Shown: positions 21,071 through 50,503 of the stretch, piece by piece
Numbering within the stretch: position 1 is the stretch's first letter
How the letters are laid out: each line of letters begins with the position of its first letter
Translations under genes and position numbers: made by a program
Notes under the pieces: model-generated
What the model was told of the DNA's origin: nothing
The model's database searches: none
The model's input: the letters and a program-made list of their open reading frames with translations, nothing else
NCBI GenBank assembly: GCA_022496785.1
Contig: SNAP01000004.1
Span: 1 to 64,000 of the forward strand
Source: Marinilabiliaceae bacterium JC040
GTDB lineage: Bacteria > Bacteroidota > Bacteroidia > Bacteroidales > Marinifilaceae
Length of the DNA: 64,000 bases
Reading direction: 5' to 3'

Positions 21071-21409
21071 TTAACTTGCAATTTTTAAATCTTTTCTTGC
21101 TTTTCTTTTCAGGTATCTTTTGCACTGTAACAATCTATCATAGCCGAGCATTATACCTAGTATAAAATCTTCCTCGTCTGTTAAATCTGTTAAAGATCTA
21201 TTGATAAAACTATTAACTACTTCTACGCACTCTTTAGAGCCGAAGAATACATTTATTTTATCATGACCAACATGTTGAATAAGAAAAGAGATATTATTTT
21301 TATTCAGGCGGGAAATAATCTCGTCTTTATATTCAGCTTTTGTGGTGTGAAGAATAAGGTTTCTTAAACCTTTTTTGTGTTCATATAAATGATGTGCAAA
21401 TACCTGCAT
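21071..21409 (-). CDS. DUF2023 family protein
   Basis: The 112-residue protein matches DUF2023, a small family that in Bacteroidota and some other anaerobes is encoded next to flavodoxin, as here (7 bp after fldA). Recognisable parts are the N-terminal FAHHLYEHKKGLRNLILHT and the C-terminal DFILGIMLGYDRLLQCKRYL. The C-terminal tail is basic (KRKARKDLK). The function is not known; conserved linkage suggests a role with flavodoxin, either as a partner or in its regulation. The pair probably forms one transcript ending in the terminator at 20992. Confidence 0.85.
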   Translation of the reverse strand: MQVFAHHLYEHKKGLRNLILHTTKAEYKDEIISRLNKNNISFLIQHVGHDKINVFFGSKECVEVVNSFINRSLTDLTDEEDFILGIMLGYDRLLQCKRYLKRKARKDLKIAS

Positions 21410-21416
21410 GTTGAAA

Positions 21417-21923
21417 TTATTTAAAAGATTCTTTTATTGTATCTAACCATTGTGATATTCTTTCGTCGTGTTTATCACTCTCATTGTCTTCATCAAGTGC
21501 AAGACCTACGAATTCATCACCATCTAATGCTTGTGAGTCATCAAAATCGTAATCGTCTTTAGAGACTTTACCTACGATATTGCAACCACTTGAACTTATA
21601 GTTTCGTATAGTTCTCCTAAACCACCACAGAAAGAATCTGGGTAAGAAGAAGAATCTCCTAAACCATATAATGCTACAACTTTACCATCTAAATTAGCAT
21701 TTGCTAGAGTATCTAAAAATCCTTGAAAATCATCTTGAATGTCACCAATACCCCATGTTGAAGCACCAAATATTAAATTATCATATTTTTCAACATCTTC
21801 TTGAGAAGCTGAATCTACGCTATAAACGTCTGCTAGGTCACTACCAATTTTTTCTTGTATTACATTTGCAATACTTTCAGTGTTACCTGTTGTTGAACCG
21901 TAAAAAATACCTATCTTATTCAT
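21417..21923 (-). CDS. fldA: Flavodoxin, long-chain type
   Basis: This 168-residue electron carrier binds FMN non-covalently and replaces ferredoxin when iron is scarce. The FMN phosphate loop is GSTTGNTE (residues 9-16). Further FMN-contacting segments are GASTWGIGDIQDDF and GLGDSSSYPDSFCGGLGELYE. The extra loop after about residue 115 makes it long-chain (FldA-like). It lies downstream of the haem operon on the same strand, separated by 253 bp with a hairpin, so it may share iron-dependent control without being strictly co-transcribed. Confidence 0.94.
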   Translation of the reverse strand: MNKIGIFYGSTTGNTESIANVIQEKIGSDLADVYSVDSASQEDVEKYDNLIFGASTWGIGDIQDDFQGFLDTLANANLDGKVVALYGLGDSSSYPDSFCGGLGELYETISSSGCNIVGKVSKDDYDFDDSQALDGDEFVGLALDEDNESDKHDERISQWLDTIKESFK

Positions 21924-22084: not shown

Positions 22085-22114
22085 GATAAGGTAAACAATT
22101 AAGTTTACCTTATC
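22085..22114 (-). terminator. Hairpin downstream of the haem operon
   Basis: GATAAGGTAAAC (22085-22096) and GTTTACCTTATC (22103-22114) form a perfect 12-bp stem with a 6-nt loop. Only a poor T tract follows on the minus strand (TATTTATAC), so read-through into fldA is possible; it could also be a 3'-end stabiliser of the hmu mRNA. Confidence 0.6.
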
Positions 22115-22176: not shown

Positions 22177-22506
22177 TTATTCTGGGACATAAATAATCTC
22201 ACCATTCTCTAATTGATATGCAATTCCAACTTTCTTACCTCTTGAATTGCTATTCGATTTTTCTTTACTCGATTTATATTTCTCTATTTTATTACCTTTT
22301 TTAGTTATAATCACCATATTCTTAGAACCAGGATTCTTTACCATGGTGAAATCTTCTTTGGAAAAGACTTCTGTCATATTAAATTTAGTAACAAGAGCTA
22401 CCATAAGAGCTACAGCAAAAACCATTGCTACATCGAATAAGTTTGTAAGAACTGATAGAGGATCATTATCTTCATCTCTCTTTATTAATCTTCTTTTTCT
22501 TGACAT
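22177..22506 (-). CDS. hmuV: HmuV, DUF2149 (ExbD-like) membrane protein
   Basis: The 109-residue protein is a DUF2149 member: a basic N-terminus, DNDPLSVLTNLFDVAMVFAVALMVALV (one membrane helix, about residues 16-42), then a small periplasmic domain. An Asp in the first turn of the helix (LFDVAMVF) is placed like the proton-coupling Asp of ExbD and TolR. By order and family it corresponds to HmuV of the Porphyromonas gingivalis hmu operon. It overlaps hmuU by 1 bp and is the last gene of the operon before a hairpin. A motor role with HmuU is inferred. Confidence 0.85.
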   Translation of the reverse strand: MSRKRRLIKRDEDNDPLSVLTNLFDVAMVFAVALMVALVTKFNMTEVFSKEDFTMVKNPGSKNMVIITKKGNKIEKYKSSKEKSNSNSRGKKVGIAYQLENGEIIYVPE

Positions 22507-23099
22507 TATTTGCTCTCCTTTATTGATTCAACTACATATTCTAGAATATTCATGTCGTCAGCTGTCCATCTTTGGCGTACTTGAAGACTTATAAATCCTA
22601 TTGCTCCAATAATAATACCAACAACAGTTGTAGCAAAAGCCACTTGCATATTACTTGCCATAGAAGCAACATCTCCTGTTGCTAAACCAACTAATGCTGG
22701 CCCCATAGGAATAAGAGTTCCCATTAAACCTAACATAGGTCCTATCTTTGTTAATAACTTCGATTTACCTAAATCTTTATCAACAATAATTTCGTAATCA
22801 CCTAAAATCTTATCTAGGGTAGGAGTGTTATTAGGTGAATTCTCTATCCTTTTAAGAAAAGAAACTAATTTATTATTTTTCTCATTTAGATTACTAGCAA
22901 ATTTTAAAAGTTCACTAACACTTACATTTTTCTCTATTTCCCTATTAATCTTTGTATTTACTTTATTCCTATTAATATACAAACCATAAAATCCTCCTAT
23001 CATTATCAATGATTTAATAAAAAAGAAAAGAAGAAATATTGTTACAGGTACTAATAAACCTGTTGAAAGCCAGTATAGAATATTTGTTATTTGATCCAT
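22506..23099 (-). CDS. hmuU: HmuU, MotA/TolQ/ExbB-type proton channel
   Basis: The 197-residue inner-membrane protein belongs to the MotA/TolQ/ExbB family: a first helix near the N-terminus, a cytoplasmic helical stretch (about 45-110), then two helices with KIGPMLGLMGTLIPMGPALVGLATGD and MASNMQVAFATTVVGIIIGAIGF. Such proteins form the pentameric channel of a proton-driven motor with an ExbD-like partner, here the DUF2149 protein encoded immediately downstream (1-bp overlap). In the hmu operon this pair is assumed to energise haem import or processing. It overlaps hmuT by 13 bp. Confidence 0.9.
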   Translation of the reverse strand: MDQITNILYWLSTGLLVPVTIFLLFFFIKSLIMIGGFYGLYINRNKVNTKINREIEKNVSVSELLKFASNLNEKNNKLVSFLKRIENSPNNTPTLDKILGDYEIIVDKDLGKSKLLTKIGPMLGLMGTLIPMGPALVGLATGDVASMASNMQVAFATTVVGIIIGAIGFISLQVRQRWTADDMNILEYVVESIKESK

Positions 23100-23797
23100 T
23101 TTGATTTTTGTATTAGATGTTTATAATTGATTTTACTTAAAAAGAAGCCAATCGCTACGCAGGCTATTATTATTAGAGACAGACATCCCAATGCTTTCCA
23201 CTCTATTACTGTTTGAGCGTTTGAAAGATTATAATCTGCTATTGAAGAGTATACAAGTAATCCAAATACTAAGATTAGTATATTTAAGATAATTTTGAAT
23301 TCTAATTTATCACTTTCCCCAAGTAGTAAATATTTTAGAATATAACTTATAGAAATTACTCCTATAAATACTAAAAGTCCATAGAATAAACTAATAAGTT
23401 CAAAACTAAAACCAACTAATAGTTTAAAGAAGTGTAATTCAAAATACCCTATACCTATAAAACATATAAATCCAGGTATTATTTTTATTATTCTAATAAA
23501 ATTACTCCTCTTATTCTTAGGTTTAAAATAATTATCTAAAAGACTAAGTGATATAAAAATACCAGCAATAGCTTCAAAACTTGTAATTACAGCTGCATCA
23601 GAAACCAATTTCTTATTAGTAAGAAATGTTTGTATAACATTCATCGATTGACTAATAACAAAAGGATATATAGATATTGCAAAAACAGTAGCAATAAATC
23701 CATATAGGCAAATATGCTTAAAACTGCCACCTAAGGCAGCTTTAAGACAATATTTGCAGATTGCTATTATAAATATTACTTGAATTAACTGTTCCAT
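23087..23797 (-). CDS. hmuT: HmuT, multi-pass inner-membrane protein of the haem operon
   Basis: The 236-residue protein is hydrophobic with about seven predicted membrane helices and no enzyme motif that I can recognise. Its place between the CobN-like protein and the ExbB-like protein is that of HmuT in the Porphyromonas hmu operon, and I assign the name on this synteny rather than on a motif. It overlaps the stop of hmuS by 1 bp and the start of hmuU by 13 bp, so all are translationally coupled. Its function, permease or complex scaffold, is not settled. Confidence 0.72.
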   Translation of the reverse strand: MEQLIQVIFIIAICKYCLKAALGGSFKHICLYGFIATVFAISIYPFVISQSMNVIQTFLTNKKLVSDAAVITSFEAIAGIFISLSLLDNYFKPKNKRSNFIRIIKIIPGFICFIGIGYFELHFFKLLVGFSFELISLFYGLLVFIGVISISYILKYLLLGESDKLEFKIILNILILVFGLLVYSSIADYNLSNAQTVIEWKALGCLSLIIIACVAIGFFLSKINYKHLIQKSKWIK

Positions 23798-26700
23798 TAT
23801 TTTCTTTTACGTCTAACAATAAGTACTACAAGTATTAATAATCCCAAAAGTCCATACAAATACATACTATTATTTGAATCTTCTTTTTTAGAATTCATTT
23901 TCTGTTTTTGTTTAGTTTGCTTTTGTTCTTCTTTCTTTAGTACAACATTTTTTCCCTTATTCTTAGATTCAATTTTCACCTCCAAAGCTTGCTTAATATT
24001 CTTTTGATACTCTTTAGCTTCTACTTTAGGTAATTGTTTTGAAATAAATTTTCTTAGCTTTTTATTATTACAGATAAAACCACTACAGCCTGCTTGGTGT
24101 TTTTTTACTAATTTAGAATGAAGTTTTGCTACATCTTTTAATTGACGTTCGCTTGCTTTCCACATCCCTTTACGAGCTGATTCCAACATTACTGCTGTCA
24201 TCTCTTGTAAAGCATACGGATTTTTAGCTTTAAAAGTCTTTTTAAGATTCAATTTGTACTCATCTTTTACGTACACTTTATAATACTTATTCCATATATG
24301 TTGGTCTATTGCTTCTGGTCGCATAGAGTTCCAACCATAAGTATTTCTAAAAGTCTCTGCAAAAGATTCCATAGCACTTGCACTACCTTTCATCATCTCC
24401 TTAATATACTTAGGATTGAAAACAGTAGAACTAGTTTCTACTCCAATAGCTTCTTTAAGATTCTGAACTCTTGCATTAGAATGATTTCTAAAATCGTTGA
24501 AATATGCTCTAGGTGTTTTATTAGTTACTTTTTTAACAGCTAAAGATAAACCACCCATAAATTCATAAACATGATCTAAACTAAGAGGTCCCCAAGTATT
24601 ACTAGAACGAGGTTGAACAACAACAGAAGTATTTAATAGTGCAGCTTCAAATACTCCCTTTTTCATATCTCCCCAATTCTTACCACCATTCTCAGAATAC
24701 ATTGCACCCATATTATTTATGTATTGATTAGCAATCTCATCTCTAGATTCCCATGAATCACCACTTTCAACTCTTCCCATAATTCCAGTACCATAAGCAC
24801 CATTCACACCTCCAAAGATTCTTTCTTTTGCAAATTTCTTAGCATCTAAAGGAGAATAACCTTTCTCTAAAAGATATCTTTCTGCATCTTCAACACCTTT
24901 TCTAACAAAATTATTCTCTCCATCACTTGAGGCTGCAATAGCTATAGCTTTGTTTATTAATGCTAGTCGAGAAGCAGCAATATCTCTTAATTGTCCAGAT
25001 GTCTGTATTACAACATCAATTCTAGGACGTTTTAAACGCTCTTGAGGAATTAATCTCAACGATCTGATATAACCAAATCCATCTCTCAAAGGTTCTACTC
25101 CCAGTAAGTAAAAGATTTCTGCAATAGTACTTCCTTCATTAGCTATAAAATCTGTAGACCAAAGAGTAAAACTAACTTTCTCAGGATACTTTTTATTTAT
25201 TCTTAATTCGTTTTCTAATAACTTGTTAGCTAATTTCTTACCCACTTGCCATGCTTCAGCTGTAGGTGTAGTTTCAGGATTTATAGAGTAGAAATTTCTT
25301 CCTGTTGGAATAGCAGAAGGATTTAATATAGGATCTCCAGCAGAACCTGTTCTTGTATACCCTCCAGAGAAAGCATTTAGTAAAGCTGTCTTTTCTAAAT
25401 CAGTACTTATTTTTAAATTATTTCTAGACTTATTAACATTGTTAATAACCTTGTTTAAATCATTTATTGCAGAAAGTAATATTTTAATAGAATCATCTTT
25501 CTTAGAAGAATTCATACTAACAGGTTTAGCGCTAGCCATTCTCTGCATTGCAGACATCCCCTTATGCTTTTTCTTCTTATTATTATCTTTGATAATTAAT
25601 AAATTACCTTTCTTATCTAAGAACTTAATTGATGAGGTAGATTTCTTTCTTGACATCATTTTCATCATTCTACCCATCATTGCTTTTCTTTTTTCTCTCT
25701 TTATTCTTTCTTTTCGAAGATAATCTTTATAAATCCTCATTTCTTTTTTAGAAATATATGAAGAAAGAATCTTCTCGCTATCTTCATTTCTTAGAGCTCT
25801 TTTAATAATTAAATCTGTCTTTTTATTATAATAGCGAGCTATAAATAATGAATTATCAATATCCTTCTCAGAGATTTTTTTTCTTGCAAGATCAAGATTA
25901 GCTAAGCCATATCTCACAGGATCGTAAGAAATAAGTCGTGCTGTATTATTTATATTTTCTTTAGAATAAGATTCTCCAAGAGTATATAAACCATCTTTTA
26001 CTTTAGCATTATTAATCTCCTCAATATACATATGAACTTTCTCAATCTCTTCATCATTCAATATTCTAGTGCTATCAAGATTTAGAGTTCTTTGTATATT
26101 TTCTTTTTTTGCCAGTTTACTAATTGTTCTACGATAATTATCTTTCAAATTACCATCTTCCATATCCTCCATTTTATGAATTCTATCTTGAAGAATTTTG
26201 AAATTATCGTATAATTCACCTTGCATAAAGGCAGCTGTAAGATGTGATATTAAACAAGCATACGATCTTCTTTTAGCAATAATACCTTCTCCAATATTGC
26301 TAGTTGTGTATATGTAGAAATGTGGCATATCTCCAATTAGAGCATCTGTCCAATCGTAGCCTGAAAGAGCAATTTGTTTACCAGGAATAAATTCTAAACT
26401 ACCGTGAGTACCAAAATGCATTATTGCATCAGCTCCAAATTCAAGTCTAGTCCACATATACGATGCTACATAAGGATATGCTGGAGCTTTATCCACACCG
26501 TGAACAAGTTTCTGAATATCATTACCAACAGCAGGAAGAGGTTGAGGTAAAATACAAACATTACCAAATTGAAGTCTAGCTACAGCAATATATTTCTTAC
26601 CATCTTTCTCTACAGCCATATATTTACCAGGAGCTTCTCCATAAGTATTCACTAAATCTTCACCCAATTTCTTAGGAAGATTATTATTAATCCATTTATT

Positions 26701-28038
26701 GAAAGTATTTACATTTACTAATTCAGGATTTCCATGTTTAAGATAATTGTCAAAAGCTCCAAGAGCATAAGGTCCTAATACAGGAGCCTTTTCATTTATA
26801 AGTCTTTTAAAATCATTAATATTGGAAGGAAGACCATCTAAATTGTATCCGCTCTTTTTTAAAGAGCAAAGAGTGTTATATAGAGACTCAACCCCCTCGA
26901 TATCAGCAGCAGAGATGGCTCCCTTACCAACACCTTTAAAATAGTATATGGCTATCTTTTTATCTTTATTTTTCTTTATTCTTAGTTTTAAATAATTACT
27001 AACTAGTTTGCAGAATTTCTCGGTATGTTTAGGTATAGCATCAAAAATTCTTCTACCATTTTTTTCAAACTGAGCAGCAATAGCAAAAGGAGCAATAGCA
27101 CCATCCAATTCAGGAAGAACAACACTCATAGAAGTCATTCCACCCGATTTCATACCTTGTTTACTTGTTAACCAATTAGAATATAAATCGCTAACAGTAA
27201 GAGGAGCTAAAATAGGAACATTCAATTTTTCTAAAAGACGATTACCAGATTCTCCACCTCCCATAACTAAACGTCCATGAGGTCTATTAATAATTAAATC
27301 GGGATTAACTTCTTTAATCATTTTAAGTTTCTTCATTCCGAAAGAACTTATAGGATATACATTAATACCTTTATCTTCTAGCGATTTAATAATCGCTACC
27401 ATATGTTCTTTATTTGAATTCTGAATATTTATATTTCCAGAAAGTAGAACAACTCTCGGACCTCTTTTTTTATACTTATTAGATTTCTTATAGAATTTTT
27501 GATACTCTTTATAAGAGGCAAAGAACTCGTCTTCTCCAGTATGGAAAAAATAATCATTTGGAATAATAACAGGTTCTTCATAATCTTTATTAAAAAGAAG
27601 TTTCTTATCAATCTTCTTTCTAATAAAATTAAACATCGATTTATAATTTCTTATAGAACCATTATTCATAAGAGTAGAGATATATCTTAATTCTTCTTTA
27701 GAAAGAGAATTAATTTCTTTATTATCACTCTCTGTGGAATAAACAGGTATCCCTTTTTTAATAGCTTTTTTTATTGCGGATAAATGCTTTTTTGTAAGGC
27801 TACTTCCGTGAATTCTCACAAGAAGCATATCATAATCATCTATGGCATCAATATCATCAATTTTAATATTGTCGATTTTAATCCATGGATTATTATTTGA
27901 ACGAGCAAATTTTTCTACAGTGAAATCTGGAAAGTTTAAACTCCCAATACGCGTTGTAGATATAAATTTGTTATAGGTAAAAAATCCAGCAACAAGAATA
28001 ATAGATATTGTTGCAAGAATTATAATTTTCTTTTTCAT
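23797..28038 (-). CDS. hmuS: HmuS, CobN-like membrane-anchored haem-processing chelatase
   Basis: The 1413-residue protein is a CobN/magnesium-chelatase H-subunit homologue: HFGTHGSLEFIPGKQ near residue 540, IDVVIQTSGQLRDI near 1010, GIMGRVESGDSWESRDE near 1085, and the C-terminal AGCSGFICNNK near 1310. Its place between HmuY and the HmuTUV proteins identifies HmuS, a CobN relative linked to removal of iron from haem in Bacteroidota. It has one membrane helix at each end (residues about 4-24 and 1388-1409, the latter followed by RRKRK). This predicts that nearly all of the protein faces the periplasm. A Lys/Met-rich insertion lies at about 765-845 (MMGRMMKMM). The chlD/chlI partners of true chelatases are absent here. 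Confidence 0.9.
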   Translation of the reverse strand: MKKKIIILATISIILVAGFFTYNKFISTTRIGSLNFPDFTVEKFARSNNNPWIKIDNIKIDDIDAIDDYDMLLVRIHGSSLTKKHLSAIKKAIKKGIPVYSTESDNKEINSLSKEELRYISTLMNNGSIRNYKSMFNFIRKKIDKKLLFNKDYEEPVIIPNDYFFHTGEDEFFASYKEYQKFYKKSNKYKKRGPRVVLLSGNINIQNSNKEHMVAIIKSLEDKGINVYPISSFGMKKLKMIKEVNPDLIINRPHGRLVMGGGESGNRLLEKLNVPILAPLTVSDLYSNWLTSKQGMKSGGMTSMSVVLPELDGAIAPFAIAAQFEKNGRRIFDAIPKHTEKFCKLVSNYLKLRIKKNKDKKIAIYYFKGVGKGAISAADIEGVESLYNTLCSLKKSGYNLDGLPSNINDFKRLINEKAPVLGPYALGAFDNYLKHGNPELVNVNTFNKWINNNLPKKLGEDLVNTYGEAPGKYMAVEKDGKKYIAVARLQFGNVCILPQPLPAVGNDIQKLVHGVDKAPAYPYVASYMWTRLEFGADAIMHFGTHGSLEFIPGKQIALSGYDWTDALIGDMPHFYIYTTSNIGEGIIAKRRSYACLISHLTAAFMQGELYDNFKILQDRIHKMEDMEDGNLKDNYRRTISKLAKKENIQRTLNLDSTRILNDEEIEKVHMYIEEINNAKVKDGLYTLGESYSKENINNTARLISYDPVRYGLANLDLARKKISEKDIDNSLFIARYYNKKTDLIIKRALRNEDSEKILSSYISKKEMRIYKDYLRKERIKREKRKAMMGRMMKMMSRKKSTSSIKFLDKKGNLLIIKDNNKKKKHKGMSAMQRMASAKPVSMNSSKKDDSIKILLSAINDLNKVINNVNKSRNNLKISTDLEKTALLNAFSGGYTRTGSAGDPILNPSAIPTGRNFYSINPETTPTAEAWQVGKKLANKLLENELRINKKYPEKVSFTLWSTDFIANEGSTIAEIFYLLGVEPLRDGFGYIRSLRLIPQERLKRPRIDVVIQTSGQLRDIAASRLALINKAIAIAASSDGENNFVRKGVEDAERYLLEKGYSPLDAKKFAKERIFGGVNGAYGTGIMGRVESGDSWESRDEIANQYINNMGAMYSENGGKNWGDMKKGVFEAALLNTSVVVQPRSSNTWGPLSLDHVYEFMGGLSLAVKKVTNKTPRAYFNDFRNHSNARVQNLKEAIGVETSSTVFNPKYIKEMMKGSASAMESFAETFRNTYGWNSMRPEAIDQHIWNKYYKVYVKDEYKLNLKKTFKAKNPYALQEMTAVMLESARKGMWKASERQLKDVAKLHSKLVKKHQAGCSGFICNNKKLRKFISKQLPKVEAKEYQKNIKQALEVKIESKNKGKNVVLKKEEQKQTKQKQKMNSKKEDSNNSMYLYGLLGLLILVVLIVRRKRK

Positions 28039-28065
28039 GATACAAGTGTAGAAATGTGGAAAGAA

Positions 28066-28082
28066 GCTATCATTTAGATAGC
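28066..28082 (-). other. Small hairpin between hmuY and hmuS
   Basis: GCTATC and GATAGC pair around ATTTA. No T tract follows on the minus strand, so this is not a full terminator. It could stop exonuclease trimming and help keep hmuY mRNA more abundant than the large hmuS part. Confidence 0.4.
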
Positions 28083-28117
28083 CTCTTTAATAAAATATTA
28101 CTGATTGTATATTCTGT

Positions 28118-28720
28118 CTATAATTCTTCATATTTGAAAGAAACATAACCAGAAGTACCTTCAGCGTTTTTGTATGATAGGAACTCTAATTTATACTGTT
28201 TATTTCCTTCAGCATTTTTAAAAATGTATATAGGAGCTTTCATATAAACAGGAGGCATAACCATATTACCCTTGTCGTCTCTTTTGAAAGTAATAACAGT
28301 AGCTTTCGATTTGATTATTTTTATAATAGAATAATCTTTTGCATAGCTATCATACGTTTTATCTGTTTCAAAAGAGCCATCATCAACTTTAGCATCAGCA
28401 AAAGAGATACCACTCTTGCAAGTATAAACACCACCTTTAGCGTCAACACTACTAGCTTCTCCACTATTAGTTCTAACCGAATATCTACAAATGGCAATAT
28501 CCCAATCTTTACGAGCAAACCATGTTTTATTATCTGCATCACTACCAGTGCCAACCAATTTGTTATCAGATAAAGAATAATAATTCCATACAGTTTTACT
28601 TGTTGCATCGATATTAGCTGTTATAGCTTTATTTGTTTTATTAGATGAGTCATCATCTTTACTACAAGAGAAAAGACCTAAAGCAATGATGGCCGAAAAT
28701 AATAATAGTAACTTCTTCAT
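28118..28720 (-). CDS. hmuY: HmuY-family haem-binding lipoprotein
   Basis: The 200-residue lipoprotein (lipobox LFSC, Cys about residue 19) has the HmuY pattern: an N-terminal KTVWNYYSLSDNKLVG strand pair, then WDIAICRYSVRTNSGEAS, and a C-terminal YKLEFLSYKNAEGTSGYVSFKYEEL. HmuY proteins take haem from host haemoproteins at the cell surface and pass it to HmuR. P. gingivalis HmuY binds haem with two His; relatives use Met. The mature domain here has no obvious His pair but has a Met-rich loop (NMVMPPVYMK), so Met ligation is plausible. It lies 19 bp after hmuR. Confidence 0.9.
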   Translation of the reverse strand: MKKLLLLFSAIIALGLFSCSKDDDSSNKTNKAITANIDATSKTVWNYYSLSDNKLVGTGSDADNKTWFARKDWDIAICRYSVRTNSGEASSVDAKGGVYTCKSGISFADAKVDDGSFETDKTYDSYAKDYSIIKIIKSKATVITFKRDDKGNMVMPPVYMKAPIYIFKNAEGNKQYKLEFLSYKNAEGTSGYVSFKYEEL

Positions 28721-28739
28721 TTTTGTTAAATTTATTTGA

Positions 28740-30872
28740 TTATTTAAAATTGTATCTTATTCCTACTAAGAATTGTCTTCCTGGATTCACAAACGATTCT
28801 TCTTTGAAATTGAAGATATTATCGCATTTAAGAGACAATTCAATAGTATGTTTCTGTATTCTAATTGGTTTACTAAAAGCCAGTTTCCAAATAGAATATG
28901 GTTTCGATTCATCCTTTGTAATAATTTCTTTACCACTTGAATCTATTTCAGACGATTGATAAAGTTTGGCAGAATGAATTCTTCCTGACATTTGTAAAGA
29001 GAAAGGACTGTTAGCAATTGTAGAATTCCATGTAGTTGAAATTGTACCACTATGTTTTACATTACTACTAAGTTGTAGACCTGTTGAATTATCTATAGCA
29101 TCGCAATAACTATAATTACCCTTAATAATAAATTGGTGAAGTAGTATATACGATAGATTAATATTAAAACCTTTCAATGTAGCACTACTTACATTCTTAT
29201 ATCTATATTCATCAAGAGCATTTTTCTTAACTACATAATATTGAGTAATTTTGTCTGATATTTTATTATAATATGCAGAAATAGAAGCATTGAAAGGACC
29301 TTTTGTAAATTCACTTGATAAAGAATAATACATACCCTTTTCAGCTTTTAAATCGGCATTACCTAAAACTTGAAATGCACCGTTGTGACTGAAGTTATAG
29401 AATAACTCTTTTATACTAGGAGCTCTAAAAGCAGAACCTACTCCACCTCTAAAAGTCCATTCCTTAATTTTATACATTAAAGATAATTTGGGAGAAAAAG
29501 CCGATTTATATTTGTTATTATAAGTATATCTTAGGCCTCCAACAATGTCGAATCCTTTAAAAACTTTATAGGTCCCCTGAGTAAAAATATTATAATCATC
29601 AAGAATTTCTGTCTTTGGTTTGCTACCCAAAATCTTTTTAGAGAAATACTCTTCATGATTATATTCTAAACCAGAAACAAGTTCAAAATCATCAGATATT
29701 TTGTAGTTATCAAGTAGTCTTGTAGAAGTATAGCTAGCATGACTCTTTTCTTCCTTCTCATCATTCTTCATTTCAAGAACAGAGAAATCGTAGAAAAGGT
29801 CGTAGTTAACACTAGCTTTAATAGAATGTTTACCAAAAGAAGAATTCAAAGCTCCACCTATAGTATATTTTTCATTTAAAGAGTGCATAACGTCAATACT
29901 ATTCTCAGGATTGAAAGTCTCATGAGTAAAATATCTACCAGTAATATTAAAATCTGTTTTCTTATTTAGTTTATATTTCAACTTAAGATTAGATCCCCAG
30001 TTATTATATTTTGCTGCATAAGCGCCATCTTTAATATCATAACCATCAGAACTATTATTAAAAACAGAAGCATAGGCCTGTAATTTATTTAATTTAGTAC
30101 CTACATTAATCTTTCTTGTCCAAGTATTATATTTCTGAAAAGTAAGGTGAGCACCTGCTTGAAATTTATGAACAGGTTCTTTAGTTATAATATTTATAAC
30201 AGCACCAACAGCATTCGAGCCGTAAAGTGCAGAAGAAGCACCATCAACAATTTCTATTTTTTTAATATTATCAACATCAATCTGATTTAGATTTATATTA
30301 CCTCCAGCCCCTTCAGACACCATACGTTCTCCATCAACAAGAAAAAGAATGTATCTACTATTAAGTCCTTTAATTCTCATATTATTCCCCATAGCATTAG
30401 GAGAAACAACAATTCCAGGTATATTGTCTTGAAGAGTCTCAAGAGTAGAAACAGAACCTGCTTTCTTAATTTCGTTAGCGTGAACTAAATTGGTAAGGAT
30501 AGGAGTTTCTGAAAGACGTTTTTTAGTTCTTGTTCCTGTTATAACCACTTCATCTAAACGTTGAGAAATTTCCTTAATCTTGAAATTTACTACAGTATCT
30601 TTTTCTAAATTCAGTTCTATAGAATCGCTAGAGAAAGTAGAATAGTACATAGTATATAGAGTAATTTTCCCCTTTGGTAGGTTCTTGAATACAAATACTC
30701 CTTTTCTATCTGTTTGGCAACCTCTACTTCCATTTGTAATATATACACCAGCTAGAGGCTTATTAGTAATCTCATTATAAACGGTACCACTAATGGTCAG
30801 TTTCTCGTTTTGTGCCTTGAGCACATTGAAGCTCAATATCGTGAGCGTCAGAATAATCATTAATTTTTGCAT
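28740..30872 (-). CDS. hmuR: HmuR-like TonB-dependent haem receptor
   Basis: The 710-residue outer-membrane receptor has a signal peptide (about 1-20, LKAQ), a carboxypeptidase-D-like domain (about 25-105), a plug (TGTRTKKRLSETPILTNLV; VDNIKKIEIVDGASSALYGSNAVGAVINI) and a 22-strand-type barrel ending in VGIRYNFK. Both haem-receptor boxes are visible: FRAP in SAFRAPSIKELFY and an NPDL-like NADL in GNADLKAE, with the expected His between them (NFSHNG). It leads the hmuRYSTUV operon. Its promoter at 30898-30928 overlaps an inverted repeat. Confidence 0.92.
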   Translation of the reverse strand: MQKLMIILTLTILSFNVLKAQNEKLTISGTVYNEITNKPLAGVYITNGSRGCQTDRKGVFVFKNLPKGKITLYTMYYSTFSSDSIELNLEKDTVVNFKIKEISQRLDEVVITGTRTKKRLSETPILTNLVHANEIKKAGSVSTLETLQDNIPGIVVSPNAMGNNMRIKGLNSRYILFLVDGERMVSEGAGGNINLNQIDVDNIKKIEIVDGASSALYGSNAVGAVINIITKEPVHKFQAGAHLTFQKYNTWTRKINVGTKLNKLQAYASVFNNSSDGYDIKDGAYAAKYNNWGSNLKLKYKLNKKTDFNITGRYFTHETFNPENSIDVMHSLNEKYTIGGALNSSFGKHSIKASVNYDLFYDFSVLEMKNDEKEEKSHASYTSTRLLDNYKISDDFELVSGLEYNHEEYFSKKILGSKPKTEILDDYNIFTQGTYKVFKGFDIVGGLRYTYNNKYKSAFSPKLSLMYKIKEWTFRGGVGSAFRAPSIKELFYNFSHNGAFQVLGNADLKAEKGMYYSLSSEFTKGPFNASISAYYNKISDKITQYYVVKKNALDEYRYKNVSSATLKGFNINLSYILLHQFIIKGNYSYCDAIDNSTGLQLSSNVKHSGTISTTWNSTIANSPFSLQMSGRIHSAKLYQSSEIDSSGKEIITKDESKPYSIWKLAFSKPIRIQKHTIELSLKCDNIFNFKEESFVNPGRQFLVGIRYNFK

Positions 30873-30889
30873 ATCGTTTCCATTTAAAA

Positions 30890-30928
30890 ATACTTTCCAA
30901 AAGTATCTTGGGAGCCAATACGTATCAA
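30890..30928 (-). promoter_or_regulatory. Promoter of the hmu operon with overlapping inverted repeat
   Basis: On the minus strand: TTG (30926-30928), 20-bp spacer, TACTTTTG (30898-30905). A perfect inverted repeat, ATACTTT-N3-AAAGTAT (30890-30906), covers the -7 box, where a repressor could block the polymerase. It does not look like a classical Fur box. The start codon lies 17 bp beyond it. Confidence 0.65.
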
Positions 30929-31123: not shown

Positions 31124-31196
31124 ACGGGAATAGCTCAGTTGGTAGAGCACTGGTCTCCAAAACCAGGTGTCGGGAGTTCGAGCCTCTCTTCCCGTG
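31124..31196 (+). tRNA. tRNA-Trp (anticodon CCA)
   Basis: This 73-nt cloverleaf has acceptor ACGGGAA (31124-31130) pairing with TTCCCGT (31189-31195) and discriminator G. The D arm is GCTC...GAGC. The anticodon stem CTGGT/ACCAG holds loop CTCCAAA (anticodon CCA). The T arm contains the usual GTTCGAG. CCA is not encoded. Here it stands alone, not beside secE-nusG. Confidence 0.96.
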
Positions 31197-31209
31197 CTAG
31201 AGTAATTAA

Positions 31210-49945: not shown

Positions 49946-50503
49946 TTATTTTGTTTCGGGTAATTTATCTACTTTTTTTAATGTTACGATATCTGTAATT
50001 TCTTTTCCACAGAAGAAACTGTTTATTTCTGCATTCATAATATCTCCTTTCAGTGTATAATTGAATTCAATCTTTGTTTTTCCTGTCTTTTTAAACATTT
50101 CAATTGATTTTAGAATATCTTTCTTTTCACCTGCATTGTTTGTTTCTGCAAGTCTTTTCTCAAATCTTTTGATTTGTGCTATATATTCTGCATCTGATAT
50201 TCTAAATTTTAAAGAACTATTTTCTACATCTGTTATTGTAAATTCAGTTTTTCCTTCTAGAGAGTATACACCGTTTGAAAATTTGTAGGTTTTATCTGTT
50301 ATTTTTGTTCCTTCAATCACATAAAATCTTGGTATAACTTCTTCATCATCGTCATCTTGATAGTTAATTTTCCAAATACCATCTAATTTGTTAAAATCTT
50401 TTGTACTATTTGATGAGTCATCATCTTTACTACATGATTGTAATCCCATTCCTAAAATTAATGTGCTTAGGATAATTAATAGTTTAAATACGTGCTTTTT
50501 CAT
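49946..50503 (-). CDS. Lipocalin-like lipoprotein with helical insert (member 3)
   Basis: The 185-residue lipoprotein (lipobox GLQSC, then SKDDDSS) is first in a two-gene transcript with the gene 3 bp downstream. Its mature start is FNKLDGIWKINY. The helical insert at about 115-145 is IKRFEKRLAETNNAGEKKDILKS, and the end is DIVTLKKVDKLPE. The signal peptides of members 2 and 3 are almost alike while the rest is diverged, which points to an old tandem duplication. No ligand-binding residues could be identified. Confidence 0.72.
   Translation of the reverse strand: MKKHVFKLLIILSTLILGMGLQSCSKDDDSSNSTKDFNKLDGIWKINYQDDDDEEVIPRFYVIEGTKITDKTYKFSNGVYSLEGKTEFTITDVENSSLKFRISDAEYIAQIKRFEKRLAETNNAGEKKDILKSIEMFKKTGKTKIEFNYTLKGDIMNAEINSFFCGKEITDIVTLKKVDKLPETK

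Follow-up and report, generated by a model that had tools for sequence, protein, structure and literature searches.

How would a chelatase held outside the cytoplasm be supplied with energy? The question is raised by a complete hmu operon in Marinilabiliaceae bacterium JC040 (GenBank assembly GCA_022496785.1, a draft genome of 2.56 Mb in 117 contigs), located in a 64,000-nucleotide stretch of contig SNAP01000004.1 (positions 1 to 64,000, forward strand; hereafter the window). Its central product, HmuS, is known as a haem de-chelatase and is predicted to have one helix at either terminus (PMC12583661, PMC13227078); its 2025 authors put it forward as the first case in which biological haem de-chelation was demonstrated directly (PMC12583661). 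Published accounts leave open the energy source of HmuS, its stalling when purified and the role of the haem bound at its site 1. Our comparative survey points, plausibly though still tentatively, to two energy regimes among class I chelatases, one cytosolic and driven by AAA+ proteins, the other membrane-anchored, periplasmic and served by an HmuU-HmuV motor, together with a ligand exchange at site 1 in the clade of the window HmuS. This pattern offers a simple, testable answer to how HmuS is energised and why it stalls, and makes the locus a useful entry point to the idea of how periplasmic chelatases are powered.

Six adjoining open reading frames (ORFs) on the minus strand, identified from the ORF list and by Pfam and PDB searches, run from 30872 down to 22177 in the order HmuR-Y-S-T-U-V and are followed by a hairpin:

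28740..30872, minus strand: HmuR, 710 amino acids (aa), TonB-dependent outer-membrane haem receptor with TonB plug and barrel and an N-terminal CarboxypepD_reg_2 domain
28118..28720, minus strand: HmuY-family haemophore-like lipoprotein, 200 aa (PF14064, 2.9e-22)
23797..28038, minus strand: HmuS, class I chelatase homologue of the haem de-chelatase family, 1413 aa (PF02514, CobN-Mg_chel, 3.3e-292)
23087..23797, minus strand: HmuT, helical membrane protein, 236 aa (by position and a profile of relatives)
22506..23099, minus strand: HmuU, proton-channel protein of the MotA/TolQ/ExbB family, 197 aa (PF01618, MotA_ExbB, 1.1e-6, above the cut-off)
22177..22506, minus strand: HmuV, DUF2149, 109 aa (PF09919, 6.8e-33)
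22085..22114, minus strand: terminator-like hairpin of 12 pairs behind HmuV (hairpin search)

The genes are separated by 19 (R-Y), 79 (Y-S), -1 (S-T), -13 (T-U) and -1 (U-V) bases, the last four overlapping. The best NCBIfam model for HmuR is the haem/haemoglobin receptor family TIGR01785, with a score under the model cut-off, and relatives of HmuY in the PDB include 8b6a, 4gbs and 3h8t. Seven terminator-like sites were counted in the region, against a mean of 2.7 in shuffles. As in the hmu operon of Bacteroidota, Y, R, S, T, U and V lie together on one strand, with R and Y swapped; the locus is thus a complete hmu operon, ordinary by gene content and belonging to a known system. The initial annotation had described just such a set of six coupled genes over 22177-30928, which is confirmed except that the end lies 56 bases past the HmuR start codon, coding stopping at 30872. 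Compared with the hmuYRSTUV operons of Bacteroides thetaiotaomicron and Porphyromonas gingivalis, the window has the same six families, the same S-T-U-V order and a two-helix HmuS, but places the receptor before HmuY, carries His/His/Met rather than Met/His/Gln at site 1 and continues, behind the hairpin, directly into a flavodoxin-DUF2023 pair.

The best PDB chain for HmuS is 9d26, the B. thetaiotaomicron HmuS (1168.9 bits, full-length match), and the residues and segments that matter for its function and placement are as follows:

27976..28026, minus strand: N-terminal hydrophobic segment, residues 5-21, after MKKK (mean hydropathy 2.67)
23815..23865, minus strand: C-terminal hydrophobic segment, residues 1392-1408, before RRKRK (mean hydropathy 2.75)
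26404..26406, minus strand: His545 of HFGTHG, aligned with the catalytic His538 (role from PMC12583661)
24571..24573, minus strand: His1156 of SLDHVYEFMGG, aligned with His1209
25513..25692, minus strand: residues 783-842, rich in methionine (10 Met in 60) and read as a shortened methionine-rich insertion (MRI)

Both de-chelatase motifs, HFG(T/A)HG and LSLDHxxEFMGG, are present. The window protein resembles B. thetaiotaomicron HmuS (PDB 9D26) in HFGTHG, LSLDHxxEFMGG and His254-Gly-Arg, and departs from it in Met79->His77, Gln299->Met304 and a shorter methionine-rich stretch, which aligns where the domain IV insertion lies; the MRI was described for HmuS in PMC12583661. Among 50 HmuS rows including the window, the HFGTHG histidine is present in all 50 and the second catalytic histidine in 49, the exception being a Phe in L044 (HmuS of G028). 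By homology to the B. thetaiotaomicron enzyme, for which de-chelation has been shown, the window HmuS would convert haem to protoporphyrin IX.

The membrane anchors were judged on the same 50 rows by hydropathy only (17-residue mean, no dedicated topology program), contig ends costing one row its N end and another its C end. At either end, all 49 usable HmuS carry a terminal hydrophobic segment (lowest mean 1.74 for the N-terminal and 2.29 for the C-terminal segments), with Lys/Arg beside the segments on the presumed cytoplasmic side. The maximum inside the window HmuS is 1.54; the measure is rough, since inner stretches of some HmuS reach 1.90. These results bear out the earlier description of one helix at each end, and no homologue lacking its terminal helices was found among the usable rows. 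HmuS would thus be held in the inner membrane by its two end helices, with its CobN-like body in the periplasm. P. gingivalis HmuS produced in Escherichia coli is described as a protein that 'may be' located in the inner membrane with periplasmic exposure, native localisation having failed (PMC13227078). Because a periplasmic, double-anchored HmuS is already in the published model, it counts as prior knowledge; likewise, the further claim that haem is imported by HmuY/HmuR and stripped of iron in the periplasm by anchored HmuS is supported by homology and already published (PMC12583661, PMC10100974, PMC13227078).

CobN and ChlH, which share the family PF02514 with HmuS, differ from it in being soluble and cytosolic, without terminal helices, and in being driven by AAA+ partners, CobS/T or ChlI/D (PMC13227078, PMC12583661). 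The ChlI model TIGR02030 gave at most 20 bits in the window's genome and at most 31 in nine other hmu genomes, compared with 294-391 for the AAA+ partners that adjoin all three unanchored, cytosolic-type CobN tested, in agreement with the initial annotation, which had noted the lack of chlI/chlD partners. Thus, no TIGR02030 match comparable with those of real partners was found in the 10 hmu genomes, the models for CobS/CobT and ChlD not having been searched. The TIGR02030 cut-off of 467 was dropped as a test, being passed by none of 14 control genomes, and the scores of the AAA+ partners were used instead. Haem de-chelation in lysates is reported to need no ATP, and purified recombinant soluble HmuS made protoporphyrin with a limit of one to two turnovers; instability, a need for additional cofactors and product inhibition are the possible reasons that the authors name (all PMC12583661).

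HmuU and HmuV are candidates for an energising device. HmuU belongs to the MotA/TolQ/ExbB channel family, and a profile of 11 HmuU matches TolQ (1.4e-4) and MotA (1.7e-4) in the PDB. HmuV has one membrane helix, a short conserved C-terminal domain and an acidic residue, Asp25, in 42 of 43 sequences (Glu in Runella). The pair resembles ExbB-ExbD, TolQ-TolR and MotA-MotB in the channel family, with weak TolQ and MotA matches, and in the single helix with a conserved acid; it differs in that HmuV is a DUF2149 protein with a C-terminal domain of its own and in that the genes adjoin a chelatase.

The distribution of DUF2149 follows that of the chelatase closely. DUF2149 occurs in 35 of 393 genomes of the same order, among them every one of the 31 with PF02514 (Fisher p 5e-42, a statistic that ignores kinship). 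Of 15 named HmuS loci, 12 were used, and DUF2149 is present in 10 of their 12 genomes, the two misses being metagenome-assembled genomes in which the HmuS contig is cut. A sample of the same phylum (24 of 104 chelatase-matched genomes, plus G027) has DUF2149 in both genomes with a true HmuS (G706 and G743); the 23 genomes with lower-scoring matches, called BchH- or CobN-like by score and length, all lack it. One of the 14 control genomes also encodes DUF2149: that of Methanosarcina acetivorans, an archaeon without an outer membrane.

The association extends to chelatases other than HmuS. In a comparison set of 20 such enzymes from 19 loci, all five that adjoin HmuU/HmuV have a hydrophobic segment at the C terminus (1.61-2.46) and are hydrophobic at the N terminus as well, whereas a C-terminal segment occurs in a single one of the 15 without these neighbours (Cupriavidus L203, 1.83; the other 14 reach at most 1.01). 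Twelve plasmid records, from hand-picked genera spread among 159 with an HmuS hit, were chosen blind to HmuV and searched whole: three have both an anchored chelatase and DUF2149, one an anchored chelatase only, none DUF2149 only and eight neither (Fisher p 0.018). Three Lentisphaerota loci (L058, L061 and L063; 8.8-10.5 kb covered) have T-U-V ahead of S and lack R and Y; in all five Capnocytophaga loci the fetched 16.5-17 kb contain HmuU-HmuV as a pair and nothing that matches HmuR or HmuT; and in Victivallis T-U-V stand apart from S. Trichlorobacter pGLOV01 carries DUF2162, MotA/ExbB, DUF2149 and CobN, followed by a second, canonical ExbB-ExbD-TonB set, and the HmuU profile scores 172.6 bits on the first channel protein and 12.3 on the second. 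The Trichlorobacter CobN had been noted in 2012 as lacking CobS/CobT partners (PMC3403914). We infer from these sequence comparisons that HmuU and HmuV follow membrane-anchored, presumably periplasmic chelatases, not TonB receptors, this being the simplest common factor.

On balance, we lean towards an explanation in which the window carries an hmu operon of a receptor-first clade with a periplasmic HmuS, an HmuUV proton motor, an accessory HmuT and a His77/His254 haem site. HmuY and HmuR would bring haem into the periplasm, as in the published model; HmuS would bind it at the head/neck site, strip the iron in the body cavity and leave protoporphyrin IX. HmuU and HmuV may together make up an ExbB/ExbD-like motor, embedded in the same membrane and powered by protons, that acts on HmuS. 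It would substitute for the ATP-driven ChlI/ChlD or CobS/CobT motors that serve cytosolic class I chelatases and would drive haem loading, deformation or product release; HmuT would be an accessory, perhaps an exit for iron or tetrapyrrole. Such a motor fits both the ATP-independence in lysates and the stall of purified HmuS, which, if the proposal is true, would stop after one or two turnovers because its motor is missing. As part of the two-regime proposal, the anchored regime would span HmuS and CobN-like enzymes of Bacteroidota, Lentisphaerota, Pseudomonadota, Thermodesulfobacteriota and perhaps archaea. No proposal of HmuUV as the motor of HmuS appears among the literature matches listed, which leave subscription papers and preprints mostly uncovered.

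Several observations weigh against this explanation. Four of the 35 DUF2149 genomes lack a PF02514 match: one (G102) falls under the cut-off, two (G187 and G380, 99% and 93% complete) have partial matches and the fourth (G292) is 65% complete. Two of the C-terminal segments are weak (L127, 1.66 with an inner maximum of its own of 1.71; L201, 1.61), and the Cupriavidus replicon with an anchored CobN-like chelatase has no DUF2149, the other replicons not having been searched. HmuV matches DUF2149 only, with no match to ExbD by sequence profile, and its model (predicted local distance difference test (pLDDT) 64, low confidence) retrieves nothing from the PDB at E <= 0.001 and no ExbD fold, a similarity of predicted structure to ExbD having been reported in PMC10100974. 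The HmuT model, made by AlphaFold from five sequences, shows seven helices at low confidence (pLDDT 47). A published survey lists R-T-U-V without Y or S in 981 species and T-U-V on its own in 337 (Mesle 2023, PMC10100974); some of these genomes may carry S at another place, as Victivallis does. Purified HmuS de-chelates to some extent without HmuUV, so the motor is not required for the chemistry itself, and the co-occurrence of HmuU/V with chelatases is no proof of contact.

The published alternative is that HmuU and HmuV are an ExbB/ExbD pair energising HmuR through TonB (PMC12583661, PMC10100974) and that HmuS needs no motor. The family of HmuU, the position of both genes in the receptor's operon and the partial activity of purified HmuS alone are all in line with it. 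We nevertheless consider it unlikely: a canonical ExbD is additionally present in all 31 HmuS genomes of the order, both motor sets lie side by side in Trichlorobacter, the Lentisphaerota T-U-V-S and Capnocytophaga U-V arrangements have no adjoining receptor match in the stretches covered, and DUF2149 occurs in an archaeon. The earlier statement that HmuS is 'powered by HmuUV' is therefore favoured over the TonB version by the comparative data, while the published accounts, as far as available, do not show it.

An equally improbable alternative treats HmuTUV as a proton-gradient permease of the inner membrane, to which HmuS would hand over haem or freed metal. PMC13227078 suggests that HmuTUV move haem through the inner membrane and adds that HmuT, HmuU and HmuV may affect HmuS activity; Trichlorobacter has a DUF2162 'predicted transporter' where HmuT would stand, and Runella has, in the same position and beside hyp genes, a weakly NicO/DsbD_2-like protein. 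Conversely, no HmuT was found beside U-V in any of the five Capnocytophaga loci, and a kinship of HmuT with DUF2162 or NicO-type metal permeases is undetectable, neither hmmscan nor hhalign against single sequences giving support. HmuT itself matched no Pfam family, and owes its name to its position and to an HmuT-seeded profile that finds the protein behind HmuS in relatives; PF09930 is present in none of 13 hmu genomes.

Other chelatase neighbourhoods were encountered in the survey. On Runella slithyformis pRUNSL01 (L131), a TonB receptor, the weakly NicO-like protein, MotA/ExbB, DUF2149 and an anchored CobN-like chelatase sit inside a hypF...hypC-D-E hydrogenase maturation cluster, a setting that suggests a nickel role for this sister module. 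On an Azospirillum brasilense Sp 7 plasmid (L210), an anchored CobN, MotA/ExbB and DUF2149 are followed by genes for an iron ATP-binding cassette transporter and by a TonB receptor of the siderophore type. L034 and L037 represent a third type of HmuS relative (1280 and 1272 aa), signal-like at the N terminus and devoid of a C-terminal helix, which lies between a TonB receptor and a 204-aa flavodoxin, with no HmuU/V in the stretch.

The second departure from the known system concerns the haem at the head/neck interface, held in B. thetaiotaomicron HmuS by Met79 and His254, near Gln299 (PMC12583661). In the window, by alignment, the corresponding positions are:

27808..27810, minus strand: His77, at the place of the ligand Met79
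27277..27279, minus strand: His254 of His-Gly-Arg, the same as the ligand His254
27127..27129, minus strand: Met304, at the place of Gln299

His77 thus replaces Met79, and His254 is kept. Of 49 HmuS covering site 1, 40 have Met/His/Gln, four have His/His/Met (window, L132, L133 and L134), one has Arg/His/Met (L128, Aureibacter) and four have Pro or Arg/Met/Ala (L035, L038, L040 and L050). Each of the two four-member sets falls on one side of one branch (98% for His/His/Met and 100 for Pro or Arg/Met/Ala in the Shimodaira-Hasegawa-like approximate likelihood ratio test, SH-aLRT). In these alignments the site-1 positions change together, as those of one binding site would, yet each set amounts to one event by descent. 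The site-1 residues had been called strictly conserved over 680 sequences, all at least 50% identical to B. thetaiotaomicron HmuS (PMC12583661). The His77/His254/Met304 combination is, judged by alignment, a new variant haem site within a known system: in the window's clade, His77 and His254, with Met304 near, would bind the site-1 haem instead of Met79 and His254 with Gln299, and general haem chemistry predicts that this ligation should lower the redox potential of the haem. Natural ligand variants of this kind are ready-made mutants for the role of the site-1 haem. That the His/His/Met HmuS is no longer a haem de-chelatase and acts on another tetrapyrrole or metal is very unlikely, because the catalytic His/Asp/Glu motifs are retained, as are the methionine-rich stretch, HmuY and HmuR, even though one of the ligands described as strictly conserved differs and the window HmuY, by residue count, contains zero histidines, which makes the two-histidine ligation of P. 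gingivalis HmuY (PMC12106395) impossible.

Further clusters with altered site 1 were seen: L035, L038 and L040 are HmuR-HmuY-HmuS clusters whose HmuS lacks both ligands (Pro/Met/Ala), with no T-U-V behind S. L035 has a T-U-V set upstream of HmuR, and the genomes of L038 and L040 carry a second, complete hmu operon (L039 and L041).

The initial annotation had singled out the hmuR-hmuY order as differing from that of P. gingivalis. The difference is real. It is, however, the usual order of one HmuS clade: among 30 complete six-gene operons in the fetched loci (a non-random sample that includes near relatives), 10 are receptor-first (window, L128, L132, L133, L134, L136, L139, L140, L141 and L144; the HmuT of L128, weak by profile, was counted by position) and 20 are HmuY-first. 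In a tree of 56 chelatases, from which three cut rows were dropped, a 10-member HmuS clade (99% SH-aLRT) unites nine of the receptor-first operons with L135, in which no receptor was found upstream of HmuY; receptor-first L144 falls outside. A novelty in gene order is thereby ruled out. This clade is distinct from the fetched HmuY-first operons, including those of B. finegoldii and P. nigrescens, B. thetaiotaomicron and P. gingivalis themselves being outside the tree. The row nearest to the window HmuS is L132 (G266; 63% identical), from another family of the same order, and those HmuS of the window's own family that the tree includes fall in other clades. In L032, two HmuY-HmuR pairs precede HmuS.

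Elsewhere in the window, a lipoprotein at 49949-50503 (22 bits) was considered as a second HmuY and is, by sequence, a short lipoprotein with a similar leader. A suspected broken ferrochelatase in the window's genome was likewise discarded, the flagged in-frame TAA being the natural end on translation. In a search of the window for riboswitches and other RNAs, only two tRNAs reached the Rfam thresholds. Directly downstream of the hmu operon, 253 bases from HmuV, lie a flavodoxin gene (FldA, 21417-21923) and a DUF2023 gene (21071-21409), which the hairpin behind HmuV makes probably a separate unit. Members of the pair also occur near the receptor-first loci L134, L136 and L139; the 20 HmuY-first loci that were fetched have none. 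The FldA-DUF2023 pair is strongly induced by iron starvation in B. thetaiotaomicron, P. gingivalis and P. intermedia (PMC10434189), and flavodoxin has been proposed as the electron donor of HmuS (PMC12583661). On the other side, a tRNA-Trp gene (31124-31197, plus strand) lies directly upstream of the operon.

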